Notes under the pieces: model-generated
Told to the model about the DNA's origin: nothing
Databases searched by the model: none
What the model saw: only the letters and a program-made list of their open reading frames with translations
Position numbers and translations under genes: made by a program
Shown here: positions 1 to 35,079 of the stretch, in pieces
How positions within the stretch are numbered: position 1 is the stretch's first letter
How the letters are laid out: every line of letters starts with the position of its first letter
Origin: a virus
IMG/VR virus record: IMGVR_UViG_3300006845_000013
Span: 1 to 35,079 of that record
Reading direction: 5' to 3' (one strand)
DNA: 35,079 nt

Positions 1-100
1 GGGTGCGGACCTTTCACACGCTGCCCGATGGGCGGTTCGCCGTGGACAGCGCGGTGGACGTGGAGCCGATCATCGAGCAGAACAAGGACCTCGCGCCGTT
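1..100. repeat. Terminal direct repeat, copy 1 (circular closure)
   Basis: The first 100 bases are identical to the last 100 bases of the window. This is what an assembler gives for a circular or terminally redundant genome cut at an arbitrary point, and the repeat lies inside a coding gene. It is therefore best read as a join rather than a biological repeat. The unique genome length is 34,979 bp. Confidence 0.95.
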
Positions 101-284
101 GCAGGACGGGAAGTGGAAGGACAACGACAATCTGGTGGCGAGTATCCCGCTGCCGATTTACTTCGGGCTCTTGAAGGAATGGCGCGCGAAGGGGCTCGGG
201 GCATTGGACCGCCAGAAAGCGCTCCATCGGTTCTTGAACGACCCAGACAACAAACTGTTCCGCATCAAGGCGGGCAAACTGTGA
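1..284 (+). CDS. Conserved phage protein of unknown function, 3' part (starts at 34934)
   Basis: This is the C-terminal part of a protein of about 109 residues that starts at GTG 34934 and crosses the join. An in-frame GTG at position 3 is internal and not the likely start, because the frame is open upstream and begins with a GTGA overlap with the preceding gene. The protein is soluble and mixed alpha/beta. It contains 'RTFHTLPDGRFAVDS' and 'VEPIIEQNK', and ends 'KLFRIKAGKL'. I do not recognise the family by name. Its place between minor structural genes and the adaptor suggests a virion or head-completion role. Its stop codon (282-284) overlaps a GTG at 281 that was probably the old start of the glycosyltransferase gene. 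Confidence 0.75.
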   Translation, partial: VRTFHTLPDGRFAVDSAVDVEPIIEQNKDLAPLQDGKWKDNDNLVASIPLPIYFGLLKEWRAKGLGALDRQKALHRFLNDPDNKLFRIKAGKL

Positions 285-334
285 GAGTGGGGGTGTGTCT
301 TGTCTCGACCGATCATGTCTGGGCGTGGCGATGA
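281..334 (+). pseudogene. Remnant of the 5' end of the glycosyltransferase gene, now a 17-codon leader ORF
   Basis: GTG 281 overlaps the stop of the previous gene and opens a 17-residue frame reading V-RVGVCLVSTDHVWAWR, then TGA at 332-334. The intact glycosyltransferase at 771 begins M-RVGVCLVSTDLVFAWH. Over the first 16 codons I count 34 of 48 bases identical, with most differences synonymous. The simplest reading is that this is the original start of the glycosyltransferase gene, cut off by insertion of the endonuclease gene at 331. The leader's stop overlaps the endonuclease ATG (ATGA), so it may now serve only for translational coupling. Confidence 0.75.
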
Positions 335-774
335 CTAAACAAGTGATATGCCAGAACGGACATAGCAATTGGTACACCTATCCCACCAGCGGGCAGCGTA
401 CCTGCCGGACGTGTTCCTCTGCCCGCAAGAAAACGTGGCGGGAAAAGTATCCCGAACGCCATATCGCGGCCTGCCGCAAGTGGGAGAAAGACAATCCCGA
501 AGCCGTGACGGCCAATCGCAAGTTCGGATGGCTGGCGCGGGTTTATGGGGTGACGCTCGATCAGTACCACGCCCTATTTGAGAAGCAGGGCGAATGTTGC
601 GCCCTTTGCGGCAACGTCTTGCAGGCGCTTGGCGCTGGAACGCATCTCGATCACGACCACAAAACTGGGAAGGTGCGCGGGCTCCTCTGCTCTGGTTGTA
701 ATCAAGGGCTGGGGAGTTTCAGGGACAATGTGCGCGCCCTACGTCGCGCCGCCGATTACGTGGAGAAAGGATGA
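331..774 (+). CDS. Endonuclease VII-like HNH (beta-beta-alpha metal) homing endonuclease
   Basis: The 147-residue protein matches the T4 endonuclease VII recombination-endonuclease family (Pfam Endonuclease_7). A zinc knuckle is formed by C90-x-x-C93 and C120-x-x-C123. Between them lies the catalytic 'HLDHDHKTGKVRG' block (residues 105-117), followed by 'LLCSGCNQGLG', where N124 ends the HNH motif. A second Cys/His cluster sits near the N-terminus (C7, H11, C25, C28). Start ATG 331 overlaps the stop of the 17-codon remnant, and the stop (772-774) overlaps ATG 771 of the glycosyltransferase. Family members act as free-standing homing enzymes or resolve branched DNA. Because this copy interrupts a gene start, homing is the likelier role. 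An upstream ATG at 295 lies inside the remnant and is less likely. Confidence 0.88.
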   Translation: MTKQVICQNGHSNWYTYPTSGQRTCRTCSSARKKTWREKYPERHIAACRKWEKDNPEAVTANRKFGWLARVYGVTLDQYHALFEKQGECCALCGNVLQALGAGTHLDHDHKTGKVRGLLCSGCNQGLGSFRDNVRALRRAADYVEKG

Positions 775-1424
775 GAGTCGGTGTCTGCTTGGTCTCGACA
801 GATTTGGTCTTCGCCTGGCACTCGTACGACCTCGCCGGGCTCCTCGCTTACACTGTTGCGGCGCGTCCCGACCTGGACCTCCGGCGGTTTCTGGCAACCG
901 GCTGCTGGCTGCCCGAGTTACGGGAAAAGACGACCGACGCCGCCCTCCGGGCCCAATGCGACTTCCTGCTCTATCTGGACTCGGACATGCGATTTCCGAC
1001 CGACGCATTGGTTCGGCTCCTCGCGCACGAGCAACCCGTCGTGGCCGCGAACTACACGACCAGACGGCCCCCGTTTCATCCCGTGAGCGTCAAGTCCTTG
1101 GGCGACCCGATGACGCGGGTCTATACCGAGGAAGACTCGACCGGGCTTGAGCCTGTCGCGGCGACGGGGATGGGCGTCATGCTCGTCCAAGCCGATCTCC
1201 TCCGCACTGTACCAGCTCCCCGCTTCATGATGGGGTATGTCCCCGATGACCGGGCTCACGTGGGTGAAGACCTCTACTTCTGTCAGCAGCTACGGAAGGC
1301 CGGGGCGACGATCCTCGTGGATCACGACCTCTCGAAGCAGGTGACCCATATCGGGATGGTGGAGTTTGAGGCGCAACACGCCGTGGCGTCCCGGCAGTCC
1401 GTCCAGACGCGGGCGGCGGTCTAA
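771..1424 (+). CDS. GT-A fold glycosyltransferase, family 2-like
   Basis: The 217-residue protein has the layout of a GT-A glycosyltransferase: an N-terminal strand-helix region, a metal-binding DxD motif in 'LLYLDSDMRFP' (D70, D72), 'ATGMGVMLV' (131-139), an acidic 'GEDLYFC' block (E166, D167) in the usual catalytic-base position, and a late 'THIG' histidine (H193). It should transfer a sugar from a nucleotide-sugar donor. In a phage, likely acceptors are virion proteins, modified DNA bases or host glycans; nothing here says which. ATG 771 overlaps the endonuclease stop. This start segment seems to have arrived with the endonuclease insertion, because a diverged copy remains at 281-330. The stop overlaps the adaptor start (TAATG). 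Confidence 0.75.
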   Translation: MRVGVCLVSTDLVFAWHSYDLAGLLAYTVAARPDLDLRRFLATGCWLPELREKTTDAALRAQCDFLLYLDSDMRFPTDALVRLLAHEQPVVAANYTTRRPPFHPVSVKSLGDPMTRVYTEEDSTGLEPVAATGMGVMLVQADLLRTVPAPRFMMGYVPDDRAHVGEDLYFCQQLRKAGATILVDHDLSKQVTHIGMVEFEAQHAVASRQSVQTRAAV

Positions 1425-34937: not shown

Positions 34938-35079
34938 GCGACACCACGATGATCCTCGATACTGACCCCCTGACGGGGCGGGTGCGGACCTTTCACACGC
35001 TGCCCGATGGGCGGTTCGCCGTGGACAGCGCGGTGGACGTGGAGCCGATCATCGAGCAGAACAAGGACCTCGCGCCGTT
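34934..35079 (+). CDS. Conserved phage protein of unknown function, 5' part (continues to 284)
   Basis: GTG 34934 is the chosen start. It overlaps the previous stop and opens V-SDTTMILDTDPLTGRVRTF, in frame with the segment at 3-284 across the circular join. The whole protein is about 109 residues. Confidence 0.75.
   Translation, partial: MSDTTMILDTDPLTGRVRTFHTLPDGRFAVDSAVDVEPIIEQNKDLAP
34980..35079. repeat. Terminal direct repeat, copy 2 (circular closure)
   Basis: Exact copy of positions 1-100. Joining 34979 to 1 restores an uninterrupted reading frame for the gene that starts at 34934, which supports circular closure. Confidence 0.95.

Follow-up and report, generated by a model that had tools for sequence, protein, structure and literature searches.

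Mobile endonuclease reading frames that lie between duplicated gene ends have been described in fungal mitochondria, in Allomyces atp6 and in Glomus atp6, atp9, cox2, and nad3 (PMC3630166). The native gene end in these elements matches close relatives at 91-98% and the inserted end at 64-81%, and the functional gene uses the inserted end (PMC3630166). In phages, the proven homing endonuclease of the Endonuclease VII (EndoVII) type is F-CphI, which is encoded beside psbA of cyanophage S-PM2 and acts with a psbA intron (PMC6083498). T4-like phages carry free-standing homing endonucleases that adjoin or split genes, such as mobE in Aeh1 nrdA (PMC2988022).

The phage locus analyzed here resembles each of these systems in part. 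As in the fungal elements, a nuclease gene separates a native gene end from an inserted end that has diverged; the fungal nucleases, however, are LAGLIDADG or GIY-YIG enzymes of mitochondria associated with 3' ends, whereas the phage locus pairs an Endonuclease_7 enzyme with a 5' end. With F-CphI it shares the catalytic motif (CX2-4C, DHDH, R, CX2C, N) and the placement of a free-standing gene next to its target, and with the T4-like systems, which move by intronless homing with coconversion (PMC2988022), a free-standing nuclease in or beside a phage gene. Unlike mobE, which leaves nrdA as two needed parts, the insertion described here leaves a glycosyltransferase-like (GT) gene that is whole again downstream because its start is duplicated. 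A survey of the open literature returned no description of the duplicated-terminus form in phages or of a 5'-end version. The engineered home-and-rescue gene drive HomeR, a synthetic, Cas9-based system, is said to insert a nuclease into a target gene and to supply with it a form of that gene in which function is preserved. Its design logic is similar to that of the phage locus, an analogy and not a relationship (PMC7968924).

The window, by which we mean the entire stretch of viral DNA analyzed (35,079 nucleotides, IMG/VR record IMGVR_UViG_3300006845_000013), begins and ends with an exact 100-base terminal repeat (positions 1-100 and 34980-35079); given this repeat and other contigs that join the window ends, the genome is circular, with a length of ~34,979 bp. 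The target gene is assigned as a glycosyltransferase by weak but consistent matches, and it is located after the head genes (portal, scaffold, and major head protein) and before a gene of the virion structural family phrog_2941. Its relatives in annotated phages are distant, with at most 42% identity, and the locus is therefore present in no cultured phage; a search of bacterial and archaeal genome contigs for relatives of the locus found none. In our view the locus is probably a cassette in which a homing endonuclease has entered the 5' end of a conserved phage gene, bundled with a replacement for the part it displaces. It consists of the following features.

3-284, plus strand: upstream gene, 3' portion; the complete gene (phrog_3982 family) encodes 109 aa and spans the ends of the circular record.
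281-334, plus strand: what remains of the native GT 5' end, at present a leader ORF of 17 codons encoding VRVGVCLVSTDHVWAWR and a stop; positions 281-330 precede the nuclease start, and the ORF terminates in ATGA at that start.
302-309, plus strand: eight bases of the native copy, GTCTCGAC, that are identical in the imported one; the chimeric start of L006/L007 switches inside them.
331-774, plus strand: putative homing endonuclease of the Endonuclease VII type (PF02945), 147 aa, with CX2C, DHDH, R, CX2C, and N motif residues.
771-820, plus strand: apparently imported, diverged GT 5' end that replaces the displaced start, assigned by comparison of the copies and relatives.
792-799, plus strand: matching 8-base identity GTCTCGAC in the imported copy, the counterpart of 302-309.
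771-1424, plus strand: restored full-length GT-like gene, an intact ORF of 217 aa beginning MRVGVCLVSTDLVFAWHSYD, with profile matches.

The genes of this cassette are tightly interlocked. The stop codon of the upstream gene at 284 and the GTG at 281 overlap; the nuclease ATG at 331 forms an ATGA with the leader TGA at 332-334, and the nuclease stop at 772-774 does so with the ATG at 771. An endonuclease VII-like gene placed exactly between the two copies and coupled by ATGA on both sides, as the initial annotation had it, is thus what the sequence contains. The insertion follows GT codon 16, and the first 16 native codons remain upstream as the short leader ORF, which retains the initiation region of the original gene. 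The further proposal that the insertion both broke and restored its target agrees with a native start cut to a 17-codon leader and a downstream GT that is whole and aligns over its full 217 aa with relatives at empty sites. Four additional contigs, L002-L005, share the arrangement with at most one mismatch (a single mismatch in one contig), and an assembly artefact is therefore ruled out. The insert is not an intein, because stop codons are present at both junctions, nor an intron, since no Rfam match is found in the window, whereas locus L307, described below, yields two group I introns.

Direct comparison of positions 281-328 with 771-818 gives 34 identical bases of 48 (71%), the value originally estimated, and the statement that most changes are synonymous holds for seven of the ten differing codons. 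Six of the 16 codons are identical, seven carry synonymous changes, and three differ otherwise, one of these being the start codon (GTG/ATG); the amino-acid changes are two, H12L and W14F. The longest run of identity between the copies is 8 bases. At the protein level, the translated repeat scores 76, compared with 51 at the 99th percentile of mismatched flank pairs.

The state of the site before insertion is visible in related contigs, about 80 of which have both flanking genes adjacent, mostly -1 to +18 bp apart. The nuclease is absent from the close relatives L006, L007, L008, and L011, where the TGA of the upstream gene overlaps the GTG of the GT exactly as had been predicted for nuclease-free relatives; L102/L103 have the same overlap arrangement with ATG as the GT start. 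No nuclease-free relative carries both copies, and comparison with relatives identifies 281-334 as the native GT start, which rules out an independent small gene. Over 50 bases, L008-L011 share 43-45 with the upstream copy of the window and 35-37 with the downstream copy. By this measure the native remnant is the upstream copy; the downstream one most likely derives from another allele and looks as though it had diverged naturally in a relative before being imported. The "recoded replacement start" of the earlier description need not have been recoded de novo, as the imported copy behaves like a diverged relative's allele. A degenerate DNA pattern found no further GT-start alleles in viral contigs.

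The nuclease matches Pfam PF02945 (Endonuclease_7) with an E-value of 2e-25 and 89 bits against a cut-off of 23.6, contains the EndoVII catalytic motif (CCALC...DHDHKTGKVRGLLCSGCNQG), and has Hpy99I and T4 EndoVII as relatives in the PDB. EndoVII proteins may also be resolvases or other nucleases. In the window, the gene behaves as an optional gene at a fixed site, for which relatives have empty alleles.

Two of the empty alleles bear on how the cassette may be lost. The first 51 GT bases of L006/L007 are a 51/51 chimera of the two window copies, following the upstream copy before a switch at position 21-29, within the 8-base identity, and the downstream copy after it; either single window copy gives 42 or 44 matches. 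We interpret this chimera as a probable excision scar, because a deletion between the two copies would produce it in one step. Recombination between two phages, without excision, could also have generated it; the similarity of L006/L007 to the window stays raised to approximately GT codon 40.

A sister cassette at the same junction mirrors the window, with a 3' end replaced instead of a 5' end. In it, the 3' end of the upstream gene is interrupted by an HNH gene of another type (phrog_2255), which is accompanied by a substitute 3' end (L009:519-1057 and L010:2349-2886). L010 corresponds to L008 plus a clean 538-bp insert between L008:513 and 514, with no loss of target sequence, and the two form a natural near-isogenic pair of empty and filled sites. 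Upstream, 11 of the 16 differences between L010 and L008 lie within 56 bp of the insertion; downstream, five differences fall within 118 bp, followed by none to ~900 bp, and the sequences differ again beyond. At nine differing sites close to the insert, the sequence is that of L009. Relative to L008, the leftover native 3' end of L010 is identical at 41 of 42 bases and the functional replacement at 30 of 48. The cassette itself, comprising the replacement 3' end and the HNH gene, is identical between L009 and L010 at 544 of 544 bases, although their loci are 83% identical overall. The L010 pattern is what homing with short coconversion tracts leaves and reflects a recent transfer, and the L009/L010 comparison shows that such inserts move as a unit. 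The L010 HNH enzyme would be expected to cut the L008 junction near AATGACCC. Recent movement is thus seen for the sister HNH cassette, while near-identical copies only are known for the cassette of the window.

The junction between the two genes is a hot spot for nuclease genes. In distant relatives, HNH_3 genes (PF13392) are located exactly between the same two genes without a duplication (L122:3315-3773, L181:2549-3004, and L205:2230-2676), and the junction is therefore filled by three nuclease families: EndoVII, phrog_2255 HNH, and HNH_3.

Beyond this junction, we compared the translated flanks at 195 HNH loci and, with stricter filters, at 161 non-redundant loci alongside 231 control ORFs. 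These HNH-locus scans identified four clear terminal duplications besides the window. First: L058:2760-3664, which emerged from the 195-locus comparison and falls below the identity filter of the 161-locus scan, has an EndoVII gene flanked by two diverged versions of the end portion of a lambda-type portal gene, which share 59% base identity. Second: L385:1361-2060 has an HNH_3 gene between two starts of the terminase large subunit (62% identity). The restored frame of L385 is interrupted immediately after the second copy by an apparent extra four bases, TAGT, also present in L386, L387, and L391; this is either a broken gene or a recoding event, and the rescue is therefore not always clean. 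Third: in L307:550-2590, psbA contains two group I introns and is followed by an EndoVII gene, behind which lies another, diverged copy of the psbA 3' end (62% identity). The first psbA copy lies behind the two introns, and the locus likely represents an F-CphI-type homing event in which the native exon was left behind. A second psbA end behind the nuclease was sought in S-PM2, S-RSM88, and S-SRM01 and found in none of them; the duplicated psbA end occurs in the metagenomic L307 but not beside the F-CphI gene of S-PM2. Fourth: L343:1906-2522 has an HNH_3 ORF whose C-terminus is fused in frame to the leftover 3' end of its own upstream gene, with copies 67% identical. The replaced end is the 3' end in L009/L010, L058, L307, and L343, like the fungal mobile ORFs, and the 5' end in the window.

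Three of the 231 control ORFs exceeded the threshold, and by eye none resembles a gene-end duplication: the one in L074 resembles an exon of psbA flanked by two stretches of similar sequence, and the other two look compositional. Several candidates from the scans were rejected as terminal duplications, namely L325/L059 (a common domain, helix-turn-helix-like in look), L285 (a repeat to which no gene could clearly be assigned), L088/L276 (windows that overlap), and a number of matches rich in arginine or proline. In L285, a conserved, noncoding-looking element with no Rfam match occurs on both sides of an EndoVII gene (1755-1950 and 2553-2750). At 23 EndoVII loci of cultured phages, no terminal duplication was found, and the pattern is therefore uncommon.

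If the locus is a homing cassette that carries its own replacement start, its life cycle may be outlined as follows. The putative EndoVII enzyme would cut uninterrupted GT alleles near codon 16-17, and the break would be repaired from the cassette-bearing genome. The divided site, together with the 14 differences over 48 bases in the imported copy, would keep the cassette safe from its own nuclease, and it is plausible that the imported copy escapes cleavage. The GT would stay functional because the second copy restores it, and the nuclease would be translated by reinitiation from the leader, using the GT's own initiation region. One route to the duplication is suggested by the clean intergenic HNH_3 genes: a cut recipient GT would be repaired from a donor that has a nuclease placed cleanly between both genes, as in L122, L181, and L205, and a homologous join on the right with an illegitimate join on the left would leave a duplicated, diverged start. 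Recombination between the two copies would then remove the cassette and yield a chimeric, nuclease-free start like that of L006/L007.

The strongest competing explanation, which we regard as unlikely, treats the duplication as a passive by-product: the nuclease arrived once by illegitimate joining during mosaic recombination, the second GT start is neighboring donor DNA with no protective role, and homing at this site is not required. The resemblance of the imported copy to an ordinary diverged allele is in keeping with this, as are the fact that the known copies of the window-type cassette are all near-identical and a report that phage nuclease genes often mark the boundaries of genetic exchange (PMC10448857). 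A single passive arrival fits poorly, however, with three nuclease families using the same junction, with a sister cassette that inserted exactly and is bordered by short coconversion tracts, and with an architecture that recurs at other genes. Far less probable is that 281-334 is mainly a leader peptide, under selection to couple translation of the nuclease, and not mainly a remnant. The ORF does keep the GT initiation region of the empty alleles and ends at the nuclease start, but its sequence is that of the native GT start, it reaches just to the insertion point, and no independent conservation was seen; it may now also serve in coupling the nuclease, which is compatible with its origin as a remnant. 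Least probable of all is that the GT start was duplicated in place within the lineage, with the nuclease inserted between copies that then diverged by mutation, since one genome does hold two copies of one gene start but the 3' half of the diverged copy is identical in L006/L007 (21/21 bases, codons 11-17) with near-identity to codon 40 (64/69), as in a circulating allele, and the replacement terminus travelled with the nuclease in the sister cassette.

Intronless homing endonucleases are usually thought to be intergenic or to split host genes. A cassette that brings a substitute gene end, as we favor for the window, would lift that limit and allow selfish nucleases to use conserved coding sites. 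More tentatively, and as a possibility that falls somewhat short of an even chance, phages may carry recurrent natural home-and-rescue cassettes in which unrelated nucleases (EndoVII, HNH_3, and phrog_2255 HNH) are combined with a naturally diverged, cleavage-resistant gene end, either 5' or 3', that makes coding sequences available as targets; recombination between the copies would generate chimeric resistant alleles and close a cycle of gain and loss. Such cassettes would be the natural phage counterpart of engineered home-and-rescue drives and of the mobile ORFs of fungal mitochondria, in organisms for which mixed-infection crosses are simple. The states seen at this site, namely empty, filled by three families, freshly filled with coconversion tracts, and bearing a probable excision scar, open the gain and loss of homing genes to direct testing. 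Such cassettes would also account for the unusual short leader ORFs and the duplicated gene ends found in annotated phages.
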